Source of the DNA: a virus | IMG/VR virus record: IMGVR_UViG_3300034198_023574 | Coordinates: 1 to 21,842 of that record | Direction: 5' to 3' (one strand) | Length of the DNA: 21,842 nt | Shown: piece after piece, positions 1,675 through 18,137 of the stretch | Layout: each line of letters opens with the position of its first letter | How positions within the stretch are numbered: the first letter of the stretch is position 1 | Notes under the pieces: model-generated | Told to the model about the DNA's origin: nothing | Database searches by the model: none | What the model saw: the letters and a program-made list of their open reading frames with translations, nothing else | Made by a program: the position numbers and the translations under genes

Positions 1675-2503
1675 AGGACCTAAAAAAAGAGGCCAGCTCG
1701 CACTAGACGAAGAAAAATACATCAGAGATAATGTGCTTGTACTAAGCATAGAGGAAATAGCGGAACAGCTCAACAGAAATCCCGCCCCCGTTGAAAGATA
1801 TATCGAAGAAAATAAGTTAGGTTTAGATCCCAACGAATATAACGACGCCAAGGTACTAAGACACAAACTGCATAGTAAAAATTTCTGGACAGAAATCAAA
1901 AGACAGTTCGACGAAGATAGTGGTGAACTAGAATATTTTGAAAGTTTATGGGTCAACCTTATCAAACAGTTTAGAGAAGACGTACTTCCTGCAGAAGAAC
2001 TTCAGATCAAACAATTTATCACCATAGACATTCTGATCAATCGAAGCATGAAAGAACGAAAGCGCCACATTAGCGAAACTGAAAAATTGCAAAAAGAAGT
2101 AGACAAAGAATATGCTAAATTAGAAATTGATCGAGATGTTCCACGCCTAGTTAATTTAGAGACCCAATTAAGTTTTGCCCGTAACAGTATCGCCAACTAT
2201 ACTAACGAATATACCAAATTATTAAACGAACAACAAAAAATCAGCAAAGACCTAAAAGCTACCCGTGAACAAAGAATCAAAAGAATAGAAGATGGTAAAA
2301 GCTCCTGGGTTGGCCTTATTCGCATGTTAGAGGACGAACAAATACGCGAAAGAGAAGGTCGCGAAATGGAAATTATTGCCATGGCCACCGACAAAGTTAA
2401 AACCGTTCTTAATGATTATCATCAATATGCCGACAATACATTAGATATGCCCTTCTTAACCCCCGACAGTGTTCTTCTTAAAGATATGGAAAAATCCCCA
2501 TGA
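1658..2503 (+). CDS. Probable small terminase subunit (HTH plus coiled coil)
   Basis: A 281-residue protein overlapping the sigma-like gene by 17 bases; GAAAG just upstream serves ATG 1658, and ATG 1664 is an equally possible start. Residues about 12-55 look like a helix-turn-helix unit (LDEEKYIRDNV, LSIEEIAEQLNRNPAPVERYI). The rest is highly charged and helical, with a long predicted coiled coil around residues 130-230. A DNA-binding N-terminus followed by an oligomerising helical body, placed three genes before the large terminase in one operon, fits a small terminase that selects genome ends for packaging. No residue signature proves this, and the protein is longer than many small terminases. 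It could instead be another DNA-binding packaging accessory. The helical, charged composition is clear; the function is inferred from layout and position. Confidence 0.5.
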   Translation: MAMSTKGPKKRGQLALDEEKYIRDNVLVLSIEEIAEQLNRNPAPVERYIEENKLGLDPNEYNDAKVLRHKLHSKNFWTEIKRQFDEDSGELEYFESLWVNLIKQFREDVLPAEELQIKQFITIDILINRSMKERKRHISETEKLQKEVDKEYAKLEIDRDVPRLVNLETQLSFARNSIANYTNEYTKLLNEQQKISKDLKATREQRIKRIEDGKSSWVGLIRMLEDEQIREREGREMEIIAMATDKVKTVLNDYHQYADNTLDMPFLTPDSVLLKDMEKSP

Positions 2504-3477
2504 AAATTGCCCTAGTAACAGGAATAACCGGCCAAGACGGCTCTTATCTATCAGATCTTCTACTAGAGAAAGACTATAAGGTAATTGGTTTACAAAGACG
2601 ATCTTCAACTAACAACACCCAACGCATTTCTCATTTACTGCACAATCCTAATTTTATCCTAGAGGAATTTGACCTGACTGATCCATCAGGGTGCAATAGA
2701 ATAATAGCCCAATATAAACCACATGAATTTTATAATCTAGGAGCTCAAAGTCATGTTGGAACCAGCTTTAAACAGCCATCAACTACCATAGAGATTAATA
2801 CGGTGGGCGTTGTTAATGTGCTAGAAAGCATACGAAATTTATCTCCAGATACCAAATTTTACCAAGCTAGCACTAGCGAAATGTTTGGGCGAAATTACAC
2901 AGTAAAGGATGATGAAAAGGTGCAAGACGAAAATACTCCCATGTTACCTCAAAGTCCTTACGGGGTGGCCAAATTAGCATCTCATCATATGGTTCAAATA
3001 TATCGTTCGGCCTATAATTTGTTTTCCTGCTCGGGCATACTATTTAATCATGAAAGTCCTCGTCGTGGGGAAAACTTTGTAACGCGAAAAATAACCAAAT
3101 ATATCGGCAAAGTTGTTAGAGGAGAAACTAACGAAAGATTGTCCCTGGGGAACTTGGACTCTTTTAGGGACTGGGGTCATGCTAAGGATTATGTTCGGGC
3201 AATGTGGCTAATGCTACAAAAAGATACTCCAGTAGACTATGTTATATCAACAGGATCAACACATAGCGTTAAAGATTTTCTCAAATTAGCTTTTGGATGT
3301 GTAAATCTTGATCCTAGCAACTATGTAAATATTAATCCTGATCTTTTCCGACCGGCCGAAGTAGATTACCTTAAGGGAGATTCTTCTAAAGCCAGAAACG
3401 AACTAGGATGGAATAATGATATCTCTTTTAAAGATTTAGTCATCGACATGATACAGAATGATATAGCTCATGTTTAG
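2500..3477 (+). CDS. gmd: GDP-mannose 4,6-dehydratase family enzyme
   Basis: A 325-residue short-chain dehydrogenase/reductase. Residues 8-14 (GITGQDG) are the NAD(P)-binding GxxGxxG loop. Residues 33-35 (RRS) follow the second strand as in the NADP-binding members. Catalytic residues are T125-S126-E127 and the Y154-x3-K158 pair. NHESPRRGENFVTRKI (183-198) is a hallmark of the Gmd family rather than of other epimerases. Gmd converts GDP-D-mannose to GDP-4-keto-6-deoxymannose, precursor of GDP-fucose, GDP-rhamnose and related sugars. It is somewhat shorter than typical bacterial Gmd, but the C-terminus looks complete (GDSSKARNELGW, then a short helix). Start and the preceding stop share ATGA (2500-2503), so it is coupled to the packaging operon. 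No partner reductase or epimerase is in the window, so the final sugar is unknown. Confidence 0.9.
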   Translation: MKIALVTGITGQDGSYLSDLLLEKDYKVIGLQRRSSTNNTQRISHLLHNPNFILEEFDLTDPSGCNRIIAQYKPHEFYNLGAQSHVGTSFKQPSTTIEINTVGVVNVLESIRNLSPDTKFYQASTSEMFGRNYTVKDDEKVQDENTPMLPQSPYGVAKLASHHMVQIYRSAYNLFSCSGILFNHESPRRGENFVTRKITKYIGKVVRGETNERLSLGNLDSFRDWGHAKDYVRAMWLMLQKDTPVDYVISTGSTHSVKDFLKLAFGCVNLDPSNYVNINPDLFRPAEVDYLKGDSSKARNELGWNNDISFKDLVIDMIQNDIAHV

Positions 3478-10521: not shown

Positions 10522-11532
10522 ATGTCAGGTAATACAAAAGCATTTCAACCAACACCAGAACTAACAGATCTTCTAGTTCGCTCTGGTTCGCCAAATAGAG
10601 AAGTAGCCTTGGCTGCTAACTCAGAGTTTGCAAAAGCTCTAGAGCTACCACTAAGACAAGCTCTCTTGAGTGGAGATATTCTGGACGGTATTTTTGAGCC
10701 AATTCAACTTGCTCAAAGCGCCACACCAGAGTTTCCTCTTGATTTCCTAGCTCCTGGCACCGAAAAAGATTTCGTTGCCTATACTATTCCTAACCACGGA
10801 CATATTCCAGAGCGTCACGTTGAAGGCGATTACGTCATGGTTCCAACCTATGACATCGGCGCCTCAATCGACTATCTCCTAAAGTATGCTCGTGATGCTC
10901 GTTGGGACGTAGTTGGTCGTGCTATGGAAGTTCTAGAGTCTTCATTCGTAAAGAAGATGAATGACGACGGCTGGCATACTCTTCTAGCAGCTGGTGTTGA
11001 TCGCAATATCGTTGTATACGATAGCGATGCCTCTGCTGGTCTATTTACCAAGCGTCTAGTAAGTCTCATGAAGACAGTTATGCGTCGTAATGGCGGCGGT
11101 AACTCAGCTTCTAACAACCGTGGTTTACTAACTGATCTTTATGTTTCACCAGAAAGCATGGAAGATATCCGTAATTGGGGTATCGATCAAGTTGACGAAG
11201 TGACTCGTAGAGAAATCTACACAGCAGCTGACGGCACTCTTAACCGTGTCTTCGGTGTTAATCTTCATGACCTCGATGAACTTGGAGAAGGTCAAGAGTA
11301 TCAGCTATTCTATAGCAATATTCTTAGCGGCACTCTCCCCGGTAGCAAGAGTGAAATTGTTGTTGGTCTTGATCTACGCAAGAGAGACAGTTTCATTATG
11401 CCAGTTCGTGAACAAGTTCAAATCTTCGAGGACGAGACACTACATCGTCAGAAGAGAGCTGGTTTCTACGGATGGGCAGAGCAAGGCTTTGCCGTTCTTG
11501 ACAACCGTAGAGTACTACTCGGCTCACTATAA
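10522..11532 (+). CDS. Major capsid protein (HK97 fold)
   Basis: A 336-residue protein with a GGGAG ribosome binding site. The order fits an HK97-type capsid protein: a short N-arm, then EFPLDFLAPGTEKDFVAYTIPNHG, an E-loop-like region (RHVEGDYVMVPTYDIGASI), a long spine helix region (YARDARWDVVGRAMEVLESSFVKKM), an A-domain with VSPESMEDIRNWGIDQVDEVTRREIY, and a C-terminal strand set ending RKRDSFIMPVREQVQIFEDE and GWAEQGFAVLDNRRVLLG. The last segment is characteristic of capsid proteins of phages with this gene order. The gene uses clearly more C-ending and CGT-type codons than its neighbours, as expected for the most abundant virion protein. It is followed by a strong terminator, so it ends the capsid transcription unit. 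No N-terminal pro-domain is obvious; scaffold comes from the separate upstream gene. Confidence 0.92.
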   Translation: MSGNTKAFQPTPELTDLLVRSGSPNREVALAANSEFAKALELPLRQALLSGDILDGIFEPIQLAQSATPEFPLDFLAPGTEKDFVAYTIPNHGHIPERHVEGDYVMVPTYDIGASIDYLLKYARDARWDVVGRAMEVLESSFVKKMNDDGWHTLLAAGVDRNIVVYDSDASAGLFTKRLVSLMKTVMRRNGGGNSASNNRGLLTDLYVSPESMEDIRNWGIDQVDEVTRREIYTAADGTLNRVFGVNLHDLDELGEGQEYQLFYSNILSGTLPGSKSEIVVGLDLRKRDSFIMPVREQVQIFEDETLHRQKRAGFYGWAEQGFAVLDNRRVLLGSL

Positions 11533-12379: not shown

Positions 12380-13897
12380 ATGGCAGCTCAAACAAGAATT
12401 CAATTTCGTAGAGGAACAGCTTTAGAATGGTCAGGAATCAATCCTATTCTATATGCTGGAGAAATGGGTTATGAGACAGATACTAAGAAGATTAAGGTTG
12501 GAGATGGAACCACGTTCTGGAACTCTCTACCGTATGCTACTGTTAAACCAGACGATCTTAACGAATTAGTTGATGATCGAATTAATGATTTATTAACAGC
12601 TGGTTCTAATATACAAAAAACATACAATGATGTTTCTAATACTTTAACTTTAGCAGTTACTGGAGTTTCTTTAACGGGACATTCTCATACTAGTTCAGAT
12701 ATTACAAACTTTAATACCAGCGTTAGTGGACTACTGCCTGTTAAAAGCATTATTGCTGGCTCTAATATTAGTGTTACTCCTACTGGTGATTCTGGATTTG
12801 TTATTAGTGCTAATGGAGGAGTAGATCAAAATGCGGTTAAAGATATTATAGGCTCTAGCGTTAGTGGAGTTAGTGGTGTTGTAGTTAGTTATGATAATAC
12901 TTCTAAACTTACTACTGTTGGCTTGAGTAATCCATCTCTAACATCATCCAATATAAGTGATTTTAATAGTGCTGTTAGCGGATTAATAGACGTTAAAAGC
13001 TTAGCTCAAGGAACCGGTATTAGTATTACTAATAATGCTGGCTCTCATACTATTTCTGTCACTGGCATTCCTAGTTCATTAATAACAGACTTTTCTTCTT
13101 CAGTTGGTAGTGTAGTATCTACAGAGATGGTTGGAGGTTCTGGTATATCTTTTAGCTATGATAACTTAACAAATGATTTAACAGTGAGTACTACCGGAGT
13201 ATCATATGTTGGACATTCTCATTCGTGGTCTGACATTACAGACGCATCGGGCAAAGCTACTCTAAATGAACTAGCTTATTTGTCAGGAGTTAGTCCAGGT
13301 TCTGCTAGTGCTAATAGGGCTGTTGTTACTAATAGTAATAACGATATTAGTGGATTGAGAAATGTTACAGCCACTGGTACGGTTACTATTGATGGAAACT
13401 TGGTTGTTAACGGCACCACCACCACCGTTAATAGTACAACAGTTGATATTGGAGATAATATAATAAGAGTTAATACTAGTGGATTGAGTACCGGTGGTTT
13501 TGAAGTTGTTAAACCAGACGCTAGTTCCGTATCATTGATTTGGAATAATGTTTCTGGTCGTTGGGAATTTACCGGTGGAGACGTAGCTACTACCGGATTA
13601 TTTGTTGGTAGTTTAAGTGGCAATGCTTCTACTGTTACTAATGGTGTTTATACAACAGATACTGGAACAGTTACCAGCTCCATGATAGCGGATAATACTA
13701 TCGTAAATGGAGATATAAGTGATAGTGCTAATATAGCAATTACTAAATTGGCTAGTAGTGGATTAACCCTAGGATCAACAACAGTAAATCTAGGACAAAC
13801 ATCAACAGTTTTAAATGGATTAAGTAGCATTAGTGGTACTAGTCTTAGTAGTCCAACAACGTTATATAATTGTATAGTAGATGGAGGAACTCCGTGA
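12380..13897 (+). CDS. Tail fibre protein with tropism-determinant-like N-terminus
   Basis: A 505-residue protein. ATG 12380 is chosen because AGGAG (12369-12373) lies six bases upstream; an in-frame TTG at 12350 would run through that site. Residues about 6-50 (RIQFRRGTALEWSG, LYAGEMGYETDTKKIKVGDG) match the short N-terminal domain seen in fibre proteins such as the Bordetella phage Mtd family, and recur in the 18235 gene. The middle has Ser/Gly/Val-rich repeats with two HxH motifs (GHSHTSSDI at 100-108, GHSHSWSDI at 278-286). Around residues 340-360 (GNLVVNGTTTTVNSTTV) is a motif common in fibres of aquatic phages. The very Ser/Thr/Gly-rich, Cys-poor composition fits a trimeric beta-helical fibre. 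It ends in IVDGGTP and overlaps the next gene by four bases. Confidence 0.85.
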   Translation: MAAQTRIQFRRGTALEWSGINPILYAGEMGYETDTKKIKVGDGTTFWNSLPYATVKPDDLNELVDDRINDLLTAGSNIQKTYNDVSNTLTLAVTGVSLTGHSHTSSDITNFNTSVSGLLPVKSIIAGSNISVTPTGDSGFVISANGGVDQNAVKDIIGSSVSGVSGVVVSYDNTSKLTTVGLSNPSLTSSNISDFNSAVSGLIDVKSLAQGTGISITNNAGSHTISVTGIPSSLITDFSSSVGSVVSTEMVGGSGISFSYDNLTNDLTVSTTGVSYVGHSHSWSDITDASGKATLNELAYLSGVSPGSASANRAVVTNSNNDISGLRNVTATGTVTIDGNLVVNGTTTTVNSTTVDIGDNIIRVNTSGLSTGGFEVVKPDASSVSLIWNNVSGRWEFTGGDVATTGLFVGSLSGNASTVTNGVYTTDTGTVTSSMIADNTIVNGDISDSANIAITKLASSGLTLGSTTVNLGQTSTVLNGLSSISGTSLSSPTTLYNCIVDGGTP

Positions 13898-14319
13898 CTC
13901 AATTTTTTGTAAATACTAATAAAATTTTAATTGATAATGGACAGGTGAAAATAAGAGTAGATAGTAATGCTCAAAGCACCACCACAACTACTCCAGCTCC
14001 TTCTGTAGCCGGATATATTGTTTCGGGAGCTGGTAATGTAACATATAATGGTACATATTGTTTAGATTCTGGTTTGACATCTTCATCTGGTGGCAGTAAA
14101 GTATATAAGCATCAAACAAATAATATGTACATTTATTATGGTGGTGGTTTTGCTTGGATTGGCCCTGTAGTTGGTAATCTTTATGACAATTCTGATGGCT
14201 ACTATCAATATGGAGAAAATGATCCTCTTTCATCGGGAGGATGGAGCTCATCTTCTTGCTGTGGTACAGAACTAGGTTCTTCCCCAAGCTCTGTTACACA
14301 AACAACTTGTGCAGCATAG
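13894..14319 (+). CDS. Short adhesin-like protein with Thr-rich linker
   Basis: A 141-residue protein. The start is GTG 13894: GGAGG (13883-13887) lies six bases upstream, it shares GTGA with the previous stop, and the resulting N-terminus (MTQFFVNTNKILIDNGQ) aligns with that of the next gene (MTKFYISANKTLVSNGQ). Residues 1-25 are thus a shared attachment module. Residues 29-36 (TTTTTPAP) are a Thr-rich linker. Residues about 37-141 are a small Tyr/Gly/Ser-rich domain with four Cys near the C-terminus (SSCCGTELG, TTCAA), probably disulphide or surface-exposed strands. It looks like a small tip domain on a common anchor. Binding target unknown; it may be a spare or alternative adhesin to 14371. 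Confidence 0.75.
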   Translation: MTQFFVNTNKILIDNGQVKIRVDSNAQSTTTTTPAPSVAGYIVSGAGNVTYNGTYCLDSGLTSSSGGSKVYKHQTNNMYIYYGGGFAWIGPVVGNLYDNSDGYYQYGENDPLSSGGWSSSSCCGTELGSSPSSVTQTTCAA

Positions 14320-14370
14320 CTCTCTGCTTCCAAAGATTACACATAACGTTATAGTAGATAGAGAAATCAT

Positions 14371-16752
14371 ATGACAAAATTTTATATTAGTGCTAATAAA
14401 ACTTTAGTTAGTAATGGACAGATAAAAATAAGAGTAGATAATACTCAAAATACCACAACAACCGCGGCTCCAGCCGTATTGACAGTGGCCCGAGCCGGTG
14501 GCTCCAGCACGTTCACTGGCTCAGGTACTTCCGCATCGCCGTACACTAGAGTTGCACGCATTCGCAACGATAGTCAGGACGGTTTGATGGCAGATTCATA
14601 TGGCGTCGGTGGTGGCGGATACGCTTTCACTGCACAGGTTTCTGGAACTGCATATGTCACATGTACTTTCTATGACGAACATAACGAGGGGAACATTGGA
14701 TTCATCAAAAAGAACGGCGTGCACGGGAGCGATCTTGCCGGAGTACAAGGATCCATTATTTTTGACGGCACGACTGTCGAGGCAAGATCGTTTTCGGTTA
14801 TTTCAGGCGATGTAATCATACTCACGGCAGACAGCTACCTTACTTCATTCGAGAATGTTAGCGTGTGGGTGGTCCCGACGACGACGACCACAGCGGCTCC
14901 GACGACGACCACCACTACTACAACAGCAGCTCCTCAATCATTGTCATTTGCTGCAGCATATATTCACGGATCACCACTACCTTCTGGAGACGCGTCAGAC
15001 AATTCATATTCTCTTTCCGGATTGGGAACAGTTGACAGTCCTACAACTCTTGTGCTCGGAGCTGGAGATAATGGCTATAACCGAGTCTGGCTACAAATAG
15101 CAAGGTCCGGAACATTAAGCTACACAGTTACAGTAAGTAGCGAAAGCAATTACGACTACGGAAGTTTGTACAAATCATCAGGACCACCATCCTCTAATAC
15201 GTCATTAACTGGTTTTACTACAATAGTCAATCCAATGGCTGGAATTAATCAGACAGCGTCAGGTACAGTGTCTGTTACACAAGGAGAGTTCTTAATATTG
15301 ATGTATACAAAGGATGACTCAGCAGACGATGGCGCTGACAGAGTAACTTTTTCAGGATATATAACCACGCCAACAACAACAACAACAACAACAACAACAA
15401 CCGCGCCCAGTTTTACTCCTATGGCAGTTTTACTCACCAGCGGGACAAGCTACACGGTGCCTGCCGGTGCAGCTAGTATGAAAGTATGGGCTGTTGGTGG
15501 CGGTGGTGGTAGCTTTGGTGGCGCAGGTGGTACAGCATTTAATACTTGGAGCGTGTCTGGTGGCGACACTATAGCTTATAACATTGGGGCTGCTGGTTTA
15601 ACAGGGAATAATAATGCTACCACTACCAATGGTGGTGATACCATAGCGACATATAACGGAACTACCATTACTGGTATGGGCGGTAAACGCTACTGGAGCC
15701 ACCCTGATATTGGCCAAGGTGGTGGTTGGACAAGTAATGGCGGAGGAGCAAATGGCGGAAGCGGCGATGGAAGAGGCGGGGCAGTTGGTGGAAATAGTCA
15801 GCCAGTTTTGATTTGTGCGGGCTACAGCGAAAACGGAAGAAGACCAGCAACTAATGTCTCAGGCTTGCTGGAAGCGTTGGCTCTTGCTGGTATTAATACT
15901 ACACAAACTTGCGGATCAACAGCTGCGTTTGGATCTGGAGGTCATAACGGAGAGAAGAATGGAGCCCAGCAAAGCGCCGGATTAGGCGGCGGCGGCGGCA
16001 GGATCGATGGTGTCCAGACAGCCGGTGGCGGCGCTTTAATTCTTTATTTTACATCAGAACCTTTTACACCGACACCTTTTACTCCGATGGCCGTGTTGCT
16101 CACTAGCGGCACTAGCTACATGGTACCGGGCGGTGCAACCAGTATGAAAGCATGGGCGGTTGGTCCCGGCGGCACCTCTTGGGATTTTGCCGGAGGAGCT
16201 GGCGGTACTGCATTTAAAACGTGGAGCGTTATGGGCGGCAATACTGTTGCGTATGTTATTGGTGGCCCCGGCTGGTTCGGTGATGGTAGATCTGGTCTAT
16301 ACAGTGGTACTGGCACTCCTAGTACGGTGACGTTTGGGGGAACGACCATTACCGGAAACCCAGGACAAGGCGGATACATTCAGGCGTCACAGCCCGGCGC
16401 TGGTGGCAGCTATTCCGGCGGTGACGGTGGAGCTAACGGAGGAAACGGCGGATCAGGTGCCCGTGCCGGTGGGGCAGTCGGTGGAAACAGCCAGTCAATT
16501 CTGGTATGTTCCGGATACGAATCTAATGGTCGAAGACCCGCAACCAATGTCTCAGGCTTGCTTGAGGCAGTAGCTCTCGCTGGAGGTACTGCTATACAAA
16601 CTTGCTCAGGACCAAACCTATGGCAACAAGCTGCCTTTGGTTCTGGAGGAGGCTATGGCGAGAAATGGGCAGACGCGCTAATGGCTGGAGTAGGTGGTGG
16701 TGGAGCCTTTTACTTCGGAGGTGGTGGCGCAGTGGTACTTTACTTCACTTAA
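14371..16752 (+). CDS. Large modular adhesin with Thr linkers and tandem glycine-rich domains
   Basis: A 793-residue bead-on-string protein. Residues 1-25 repeat the anchor of 13894. Then follow: a Thr-rich linker (about 30-33); module 1 (about 35-168, beta-rich, GTSASPYTRVARI); a linker T5-AAP-T8-AAP (170-188); module 2 (about 189-333, LGAGDNGYNRVWLQIARSG, resembling lectin-like or PPC-type sandwiches); a T10 linker (about 335-344); and two tandem glycine-rich modules (348-569 and 570-793), each opening FTPMAVLLTSGTSY and ending LYFT. The last two recall glycine-rich receptor-binding tips of T-even gp38-type adhesins. The Gly-rich part is far richer in GC than the neighbouring fibre genes. 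Ribosome binding site weak (GAGA). It most probably determines host binding. Cysteines recur in each module (CAGY/CSGY and QTC) and may bond. Confidence 0.8.
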   Translation: MTKFYISANKTLVSNGQIKIRVDNTQNTTTTAAPAVLTVARAGGSSTFTGSGTSASPYTRVARIRNDSQDGLMADSYGVGGGGYAFTAQVSGTAYVTCTFYDEHNEGNIGFIKKNGVHGSDLAGVQGSIIFDGTTVEARSFSVISGDVIILTADSYLTSFENVSVWVVPTTTTTAAPTTTTTTTTAAPQSLSFAAAYIHGSPLPSGDASDNSYSLSGLGTVDSPTTLVLGAGDNGYNRVWLQIARSGTLSYTVTVSSESNYDYGSLYKSSGPPSSNTSLTGFTTIVNPMAGINQTASGTVSVTQGEFLILMYTKDDSADDGADRVTFSGYITTPTTTTTTTTTTAPSFTPMAVLLTSGTSYTVPAGAASMKVWAVGGGGGSFGGAGGTAFNTWSVSGGDTIAYNIGAAGLTGNNNATTTNGGDTIATYNGTTITGMGGKRYWSHPDIGQGGGWTSNGGGANGGSGDGRGGAVGGNSQPVLICAGYSENGRRPATNVSGLLEALALAGINTTQTCGSTAAFGSGGHNGEKNGAQQSAGLGGGGGRIDGVQTAGGGALILYFTSEPFTPTPFTPMAVLLTSGTSYMVPGGATSMKAWAVGPGGTSWDFAGGAGGTAFKTWSVMGGNTVAYVIGGPGWFGDGRSGLYSGTGTPSTVTFGGTTITGNPGQGGYIQASQPGAGGSYSGGDGGANGGNGGSGARAGGAVGGNSQSILVCSGYESNGRRPATNVSGLLEAVALAGGTAIQTCSGPNLWQQAAFGSGGGYGEKWADALMAGVGGGGAFYFGGGGAVVLYFT
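14878..14934 (+). repeat. Thr/Ala/Pro linker-coding repeat
   Basis: Codons for T5-AAP-T8-AAP within the large adhesin, using mixed ACG, ACC, ACT and ACA codons. This makes a mucin-like, probably extended linker between modules 1 and 2. Confidence 0.85.
15373..15399 (+). repeat. (ACA)9 microsatellite encoding a Thr linker
   Basis: Nine uninterrupted ACA codons followed by ACC give ten Thr in a row between modules 2 and 3 of the adhesin. Pure triplet runs can slip in replication, which would change linker length without breaking the frame. Confidence 0.9.
15412..16749 (+). repeat. Tandem duplication of a ~222-residue glycine-rich module
   Basis: Copy 1 spans 15412-16077 and copy 2 spans 16078-16749, in frame. 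They share matched segments in the same order: FTPMAVLLTSGTSY, SMK-WAVG, GGTAF-TWSV, AVGGNSQ, NGRRPATNVSGLLEA, and a final LYFT. The DNA is also recognisably similar across the NGRRPATNVSGLLEA segment. Loops between these segments differ in length and sequence. Confidence 0.9.
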
Positions 16753-16769
16753 TTAAGGAGAAACATATT

Positions 16770-17261
16770 ATGGGAAACATACTTAGAAATCCAACAAATA
16801 ATAAAGCCATTTTGCTAACGCCGCGCACTGGTAGTCATTCGCTTACTTTAGCAGCTATATCCCAGTGGTGGCCCGATACTGTGCTGAGGGATTCGGTTCA
16901 GCATCCCGCCTGCTGGATACCTCATCAAGAAAGCTACATTCATGGCACCAAAGAAAATGTTGCAATTATCATTCGTAATCCAGTCGAACGATTTAGATCT
17001 ATGATATCTCACAAAAATCTCAATATCGATGAGCAGCTTGTTAAACCCATGTACGGACCACTTCCTCAAGGTAATTTTGTACGTTACTTCCGGTTTGAAG
17101 ATCAGCTTAACGAAGCCGCCGAATGGTTGGGCTTGCAGACACCTCTGTCTCAGGAAGACGTTAGCGATCCGGTCGATAAACCAATATTGACACCAGAACA
17201 AGAAGCAAGAGTACGTGAGATTTATGCTGATGATATAGTTCTTTGGGAATCTTTGCAATAA
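16770..17261 (+). CDS. Small sulfotransferase-family protein
   Basis: A 163-residue protein; ATG 16770 follows AAGGAG (16755-16760), and the longer in-frame extension upstream only reads through the adhesin gene in another frame. Residues 17-25 (TPRTGSHSL) match the PAPS 5'-phosphosulfate loop of sulfotransferases. Residues 64-78 (VAIIIRNPVERFRSM) match the 3'-phosphate motif, with R69 and S77 spaced as in known enzymes (R-x7-S). The C-terminus (LTPEQEARVREIYADDIVLWESL) is the usual end of bacterial family members. It is shorter than most, so the acceptor-binding part is minimal. The reaction would move sulfate from PAPS to a hydroxyl, most often on carbohydrate or Tyr. It lies between the Thr-rich adhesin and a glycosyltransferase, which suggests an acceptor on virion or host glycans. 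Related nucleotide-binding folds remain an alternative. Confidence 0.78.
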   Translation: MGNILRNPTNNKAILLTPRTGSHSLTLAAISQWWPDTVLRDSVQHPACWIPHQESYIHGTKENVAIIIRNPVERFRSMISHKNLNIDEQLVKPMYGPLPQGNFVRYFRFEDQLNEAAEWLGLQTPLSQEDVSDPVDKPILTPEQEARVREIYADDIVLWESLQ

Positions 17262-17273
17262 TACTTATAGTTC

Positions 17274-18137
17274 ATGAATAATAAATTACTAACAATAGGC
17301 ATAACTTGTTACGATGATTTTGATGGAGTTTATTTTACAGTTCAAAGCTTAAGAGCACATCATTCAATCTTAAAAAATAATGATATAGAAATAATAGTAC
17401 TAGACAACAATCCAGACAGTGTTCATGGTCAAGAAACAGCTAAGTTTATAAATGGTTGGGCTTCGGATGTTGCTAAGTACTTTCCTCTCAAAGATAAGCC
17501 AAGTTCTTTTAATAAATATAAGATAGTTGATCATGCTAACGGTCAATATGTTCTAATTTTAGATTGTCATGTATTATTAGTAAATAATGCTATAGAGTCC
17601 TTATTAAACTACTACAAAGACCATCCAGACTGTAAAGATTTAGTTCAGGGTCCTTTACTCTACGATGATTTAAAAAATTGTGCCACAGAGTTTAAGGACG
17701 AATGGAGAGGGGATATGTATGGCATATGGTGGAATAATAATGAGGCTTTAGCTAAGAATGAACCTTTTGAAATAAAGATGCAAGGCATGGGTTTGTGTTC
17801 GTTTGAGAAAAAGAATTGGCCGGGCATTTGTCAGTACTTTAAAGGCTTTGGGGCCGAAGAAGGATATCTATCAGAGAAGTTTAGGAGAAACGGAGGAAAG
17901 AATATTTGTATTCCCCAACTTAAATGGATTCACCGATTTGGCCGACCTAATGGAGTTAAATATCCACTAATATTAGAAGATAGAATATGGAATTATTTTG
18001 TGGGGTGGCTTGAAATAACCAGAGATCCTAATCACCATATGATAGTTGATACTTATAATCATTTCAAAGGAAGAATACCACCAGAGAGCCTAGATAATAT
18101 CCTAGAACGAGCAAAAAATAAGATTCTCAATACCTAA
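17274..18137 (+). CDS. Family 2-type (GT-A) glycosyltransferase
   Basis: A 287-residue soluble GT-A enzyme with no membrane segment. The nucleotide-binding N-terminus is TIGITCYDDFDGVYFTVQSL with LDNNPDS (43-49). The metal site is D97-C-H99 in ILDCHVLL, a DxH form rather than DxD, as in polypeptide GalNAc-transferases. MQGMGL (169-174) precedes an acceptor-loop region, then GFGAEEGYLSEKFRRNGG (191-208) carries the catalytic acid candidates E195/E196, followed by H220 in WIHRFGRP. This set is typical of bacterial family 2 enzymes and close relatives. Donor and acceptor cannot be read. The gene starts 12 bases after the sulfotransferase stop with no obvious ribosome binding site, so the two are probably co-translated, and it precedes a promoter for the next fibre. 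Confidence 0.85.
   Translation: MNNKLLTIGITCYDDFDGVYFTVQSLRAHHSILKNNDIEIIVLDNNPDSVHGQETAKFINGWASDVAKYFPLKDKPSSFNKYKIVDHANGQYVLILDCHVLLVNNAIESLLNYYKDHPDCKDLVQGPLLYDDLKNCATEFKDEWRGDMYGIWWNNNEALAKNEPFEIKMQGMGLCSFEKKNWPGICQYFKGFGAEEGYLSEKFRRNGGKNICIPQLKWIHRFGRPNGVKYPLILEDRIWNYFVGWLEITRDPNHHMIVDTYNHFKGRIPPESLDNILERAKNKILNT

Follow-up and report, generated by a model that had tools for sequence, protein, structure and literature searches.

In the 21.8-kb virus fragment analysed here (IMG/VR record IMGVR_UViG_3300034198_023574, positions 1 to 21,842; this whole stretch is called the window), a gene for a GT-A glycosyltransferase (GT) was found close behind two adhesin genes that encode threonine-rich tracts. 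We consider it probable, at roughly four in five, that this GT is a dedicated mucin-type O-glycosyltransferase for Thr tracts of virion proteins, a reading drawn from genome comparisons and a predicted fold. Glycosylation of the tracts was taken as the best explanation because of the fold, the metal motif, the repeated linkage of GT and tract genes in phages and bacteria, and the converse linkage of tract genes with a second GT family. The gene order between two Mtd_N-type fibre genes was adhesin 1, adhesin 2, a sulfotransferase-like (ST) gene and the GT gene. The tracts, motifs and adjacency named in a previous sequence-only reading of the window were all present at the places it gave. The features concerned are the following, ORF standing for open reading frame.

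13894 to 14319, + strand: adhesin 1, a short putative virion protein (ORF with GTG start; N-terminal module as in adhesin 2, then a Thr/Pro/Ala linker)
13978 to 14001, + strand: adhesin 1 tract TTTTTPAP, proposed O-glycan acceptor (mixed codons ACC ACC ACA ACT ACT)
14371 to 16752, + strand: adhesin 2 (N-terminal module, three Thr/Ala/Pro linkers, two Gly-rich C-terminal modules)
14452 to 14475, + strand: first Thr tract of adhesin 2, TTTTAAPA
14875 to 14934, + strand: second Thr tract of adhesin 2, PTTTTTAAPTTTTTTTTAAP (mixed codons)
15364 to 15408, + strand: third Thr tract of adhesin 2, TTPT10AP, that is TTPTTTTTTTTTTAP (mostly ACA codons)
17274 to 18137, + strand: GT-A glycosyltransferase, proposed Thr-tract O-glycosyltransferase (DxH motif; predicted polypeptide GalNAc-transferase fold)
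17562 to 17570, + strand: DCH (DxH) metal motif, D97-C98-H99 of the GT

The window also contained terminase, portal-like, capsid-like and fibre genes. For the protein encoded at 10522-11529, to which a capsid role was assigned by gene order, 80 or more relatives with an identity of at least 88% were found. These relatives are located on contigs of up to 244 kb, and the phage behind the window is for that reason judged to be a member of a large tailed phage lineage.

The GT is a 287 amino acid protein of the GT2 clan, and PF00535 was the sole Pfam family to score above its cut-off (3.7e-8). The earlier assignment as a GT-A enzyme with a DxH metal motif was borne out: the motif reads DCH, and D97 and H99, as well as E195 and E196, were invariant in 143/143 viral and bacterial homologs, while H220 was present in 142 with one gap. 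An AlphaFold (AF2) model of the GT, built from 28 homologs, had a pLDDT of 93.6. All of its 50 best matches in the PDB were polypeptide N-acetylgalactosamine (GalNAc) transferases (E-values 5e-14 to 3e-11, TM-score by query 0.61-0.73), and the structures matched were from human, mouse, fly and Toxoplasma. These GT27 enzymes, the nearest fold to the predicted model among solved structures, share with the window GT the GT-A type, the DxH motif, a conserved Glu pair in GFG[AG]EE, a conserved late His and a link to Thr/Pro/Ala-rich acceptors. The window GT differs from them in being prokaryotic and phage-encoded, in its small size, in having neither lectin domain nor signal anchor, in the low identity (14-18%) and in its generic GT2 sequence profile. 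It looks like a GalNAc-transferase by its predicted fold, yet we do not file it as a member of GT27.

With a Thr frequency of 7.5%, the number of runs of at least eight Thr expected by chance in the 6,511 coding residues of the window is 6e-6, and in the remaining window genes no Thr run longer than four was detected. Adjacent Thr codons in 233 tracts of related loci were identical at a rate of 0.297 compared to 0.300 expected from codon usage, and the tracts are therefore maintained at the protein level, by selection on the amino acid run. The same mixing of codons ruled out that the tracts are microsatellites or products of DNA slippage; the third tract of the window, mostly ACA, is an exception to it. 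Fifty tract proteins examined included matches to ConA-like lectin, fn3, FGE-type, BNR and Gly-rich domains, and also to tail and baseplate PHROGs. On sequence grounds the tract proteins are classed as virion proteins.

The presence of the GT and of Thr tracts was compared in 80 loci with GT relatives and 80 with capsid relatives. The loci were split in a nearly binary manner: the richest 15-residue stretch of a locus contained either 10-15 Thr or no more than 6. In records of at least 120 kb, (ACN)8 tracts were found in 12/12 with the GT and 0/8 without it (p=8e-6, the p-values of these comparisons being guides only), and in records of all sizes in 23/33 versus 0/15. Among capsid relatives of 88-98% identity with at least 9 kb downstream, tracts were present in all six GT-containing loci and in none of the 22 that lacked the GT (p=3e-6). 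The tracts checked in eight of the whole records were in the reading frame of ORFs that each held 2-18 Thr tracts; in L102, L104 and L106 the GT started about -8 to +3 nucleotides (nt) from the point where the last tract ORF stops. A tree of 116 GTs, labelled for a Thr-rich ORF at no more than 3 kb, required 23 changes of the label, at least 11 of which were forced on supported (starred) branches, and the link between GT and tract has therefore been made or broken repeatedly.

The linkage was also apparent when random viral tracts were the starting point, and the earlier proposal of a GT that acts on the tracts thereby passed a converse test. Of 120 viral contigs chosen solely for 12 consecutive Thr codons (T12), 99 had the tract in an ORF. 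The GT family of the window was located directly 3′ of the tract gene in three of these contigs and nearby in two. A second, unrelated GT-A family started -3 to 33 nt past the tract gene in 11 contigs and 766 nt past it in one. Together the two families accounted for 15/118 next-downstream genes versus 3/400 distant genes (p=5e-8). Pfam revealed further GT families among the neighbours of tract genes; the families listed for the distant control included no GT.

Records of 74 cultured phages contained the second GT family, Lactobacillus phage Semele being one of its carriers. No cultured phage was found to carry the window's own family. In all five of the cultured phages examined, Thr-tract proteins were encoded beside or near the second-family GT. 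One of these is Enterococcus phage phiFL1A, where the last base of the gene for a Thr-tailed major tail protein overlaps the GT start. Another Thr-tract protein of this phage (L383:2-955 and 2348-3004), gp45, is encoded 5′ of its tail genes. In Staphylococcus phage RQ1 (L386:3235-3937), a short Thr run closes the ORF of the major tail protein, and long Thr tracts follow in a second ORF that overlaps it in a different frame, which suggests that a Thr-tailed tail protein may be made by frameshift. A likeness of the second family to plant peptidyl glycosyltransferases was first suspected and then abandoned, as its model gave moderate matches only, to WbbM, LARGE1, UGGT and LgtC-like GT-A enzymes.

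A scan of bacterial and archaeal genomes returned 61 GT relatives at 31-49% identity, and in 28 of these a Thr-rich ORF was located at most 2 kb from the GT. The density of Thr-rich ORFs was 19.6 per 100 kb at less than 1 kb from the GT and 9.6 at 1-2 kb, with two cases in all beyond 3 kb, and the link was found in several bacterial phyla. The bacterial GT was often fused to an HprK-related-kinase-like domain. Beside the GT in L294, L298, L302-L305, L316 and L318, short proteins were encoded with a twin-arginine-like signal, the common motif LPxRWTKPVVxSVxVPAHAA and then a Thr tail; these loci adjoin the fused HprK-related-kinase-like/GT protein. The neighbours of bacterial GTs of the HprK-fused type included NTP_transf_5, PqqD and sulfotransferases. 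Judged by their gene content, the bacterial loci with Thr tail and GT look like an undescribed system for the modification of Thr-tail peptides.

The proposed pathway may be depicted as follows. The GT would act in the cytoplasm as a GT-A polypeptide O-glycosyltransferase with a nucleotide sugar as donor, and would place sugar on the threonines of the Thr/Ala/Pro linkers in the adhesins encoded just upstream, before these are assembled into the phage particle. We infer both the acceptor, for which TTTTTAAPTTTTTTTTAAP is a candidate peptide, and the sugar, which could be GalNAc, N-acetylglucosamine (GlcNAc) or another. The glycosylated tracts, situated between the virion anchor and the receptor-binding modules, might then form linkers of a mucin-like kind that are stiff, extended, resistant to proteases and possibly shielding. 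A large aquatic phage of this type thus conceived probably makes its own mucin-like, sugar-coated fibres. We lean, with less assurance, towards a wider proposal: that prokaryotes and their phages hold a widespread and undescribed mucin-type O-glycosylation of poly-Thr, on virion proteins and on short twin-arginine-exported bacterial proteins. The GTs dedicated to it would work in the cytoplasm and belong to two or more unrelated families, one of them with the GalNAc-transferase fold; modular adhesins would in addition contain a Gly-rich module with a sulfotransferase of its own.

Several observations weigh against tract glycosylation by the GT. A few of the 23 positive records were weak, having one or two matches or as many with the reversed control pattern, and when these were dropped the count was 20/33 versus 0/15 (p=6e-5). 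Records with and without the GT were related and came from different queries, and Fisher p-values overstate their independence. Seven of the 33 GT-containing fragments (55-105 kb) had no tract, and 10 lacked the (ACN)8 pattern, 3 of these having T7 tracts; in the tractless fragments the GT may act on another target, or the contig may not reach as far as the tract. A fragment without the GT (L137/G049) did contain tracts, though its contig stops inside the second tract gene. Many phage GT homologs (50-65% identity; among L011-L081) are located in a different part of the genome, at a distance from that genome's tracts, and 33/61 bacterial homologs had no tract inside 2 kb. Regarding the enzyme itself, a Pfam scan of its 287 residues detected no ricin-type lectin domain, and its sequence profile, searched against PDB chains, had its best match in TarP, a wall teichoic acid GlcNAc transferase (5e-6); this search returned TarP and chondroitin synthase and no GalNAc-transferase at E<=1.

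The match to TarP, the nearest solved structure by sequence, would also fit a GT, and an ST, that modify glycans of the host surface, for instance in superinfection exclusion or receptor masking, and that travel with the adhesin cassette through a shared receptor theme. Phage GTs that alter the O-antigen are well known, the cassette is located in a variable adhesin region, and the window GT resembles the GtrB-like enzymes of O-antigen conversion in being phage-encoded and of the GT2 clan, with a weak PHROG match (E 0.0074 over residues 30-117). It differs from GtrB in lacking C-terminal membrane helices (the model has no helix pair past the GT-A domain), in having DxH instead of the usual DxD and in its linkage to tracts. 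The genes that flank the GT in the window are the ST-like gene and a fibre gene, and no gene for a GtrA-type flippase was recognised next to it. The linkage follows the Thr tract and no particular receptor-binding module, the tract proteins including major tail proteins and baseplate proteins as well as lectin-like adhesins, and the bacterial homologs adjoin short Thr-tail proteins with a twin-arginine signal and no phage adhesin. The position of an unrelated GT directly behind the major tail protein gene in phiFL1A argues further against the host surface as target, because a major tail protein is no receptor-binding protein. Taken together, modification of the host surface appears quite unlikely. 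We hold it to be very unlikely that the tracts are plain flexible linkers and that the GT has an unrelated target, such as DNA or another protein, the two occurring together through shared ancestry or gene exchange. Tracts with neither of the two GT families are common (at least 33/44 random tract records, which are fragments and in which other GT families do appear). Against this, GT and tract appear and disappear jointly among phages with capsids at least 88% identical, and the link recurs on the GT tree, in several bacterial phyla and with a second GT family.

The sequence-only reading had gone further than tract glycosylation and proposed that GT and ST jointly build sulfated glycans on the Thr tracts, with a GDP-mannose 4,6-dehydratase as a possible supplier of an activated deoxysugar. 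The features involved are these.

15421 to 16749, + strand: tandem Gly-rich modules of adhesin 2, homologs of which are found directly 5′ of the ST-like gene in all close relatives
16770 to 17261, + strand: sulfotransferase-like protein (ST) with PAPS-binding-like motifs, apparently paired with the Gly-rich module and not with the Thr tracts
2500 to 3477: GDP-mannose 4,6-dehydratase (9e-118), 10 kb from the adhesin and GT genes

The order tract gene, ST and GT, present in the window and again in L018-L023 (GT 65% identical), is in favour of a joint system. In the window and L018, however, the tract gene itself ends in the Gly-rich module. The ST was located -1 to 20 nt after a gene whose protein has the adhesin 2 type of Gly-rich module at its end in every close relative (the window, L083-L092, L004 and L018), tract or no tract, including L083, L084, L085, L088 and L091, which contain neither tract nor GT. 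ORFs for the ST-like protein and the Gly-rich module also adjoin in L134. The module was absent at three divergent ST relatives (L009, L121 and L142), and related, shorter Gly-rich modules (L028, L031) had no ST. The association of a GT and ST pair with Thr-tract adhesins across related phages, offered as a check of the earlier proposal, thus held for the GT (12/12 versus 0/8; 6/6 versus 0/22) and failed for the ST, since 4/5 ST-bearing capsid relatives lacked tract and GT. Since the context of the ST follows the Gly-rich module, the window appears to hold two pairs of enzyme and module, one made up of the GT and the Thr tract and the other of the ST and the Gly-rich module, which would be joined in adhesin 2, and a sulfated glycan built by both enzymes on the tracts is unlikely. 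The dehydratase was rejected as part of the system, being present in 25/27 relatives without the GT and thereby a core gene of the lineage.

As to the assignment of the ST as a PAPS-type (3′-phosphoadenosine 5′-phosphosulfate) sulfotransferase, conserved PAPS-binding-like motifs were observed, TPRTGSHSL and IIRNPVERFRSM, with R19, R69, R74 and S77 invariant in 13 homologs; confirmation from databases was not obtained (Pfam 0.035 in one member, PDB sequence search 0.65). In L085, L086, L087 and L091 the ST-like gene has one base in common with the 3′ end of the gene for the Gly-rich adhesin, which probably reflects translational coupling.

The glycosylation of virions by phages is known as such. 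In mycobacteriophages, phage GTs modify the phage's own virion proteins, at the C-termini of capsid and tail tube subunits, according to the account of Freeman et al. 2023 given in PMC12619734. As in phage virion-glycosylation systems, the window GT gene is linked to a virion protein gene; the proposed acceptor, the Thr tracts of adhesins, differs from that of the mycobacteriophages. The searchable literature yielded no description of Thr-tract phage fibres with a GT or of GT27-like phage enzymes, a general remark on virion glycans of mycobacteriophages being the nearest match. A fold like that of GalNAc-transferases, acceptors in the form of Thr tracts and an occurrence in bacteria were likewise not described there, and the type of enzyme and of acceptor appear to be new. 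GlcNAc-transferases of GT60 / PF11397 also act on polypeptides. Members of PF11397 were found in one case next to the random viral Thr-tract genes and in one case next to the bacterial GT homologs, and the window GT has no match to this family.

Phage virion proteins often contain Thr tracts, and these are as a rule read as plain linkers. Should the tracts be glycan acceptors served by dedicated enzymes, many environmental phages would have an outer surface that consists in part of phage-made sugar, with a bearing on adsorption, on resistance to antibodies and proteases, and on the expression of receptor-binding proteins for study. A GalNAc-transferase-like fold together with a mucin-like acceptor outside the eukaryotes would also raise the question of the origin of mucin-type glycosylation. 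With a second GT family in cultured phages, the idea is testable now.

Some features of the adhesins remain to be mentioned. The first 125 nt are common to the genes of adhesins 1 and 2 at 73% identity, and the short N-terminal module of these proteins, used as query over the fetched loci, had hits in the window and in its near copy only. Adhesin 2 contains a tandem duplicate of its Gly-rich module (138 nt at 75%), and its match to Gly_rich_2 (0.0027) was under the curated cut-off. The GC content rises to as much as 0.52 at positions 13870-16760 of the window, which suggests that this segment was recently acquired.

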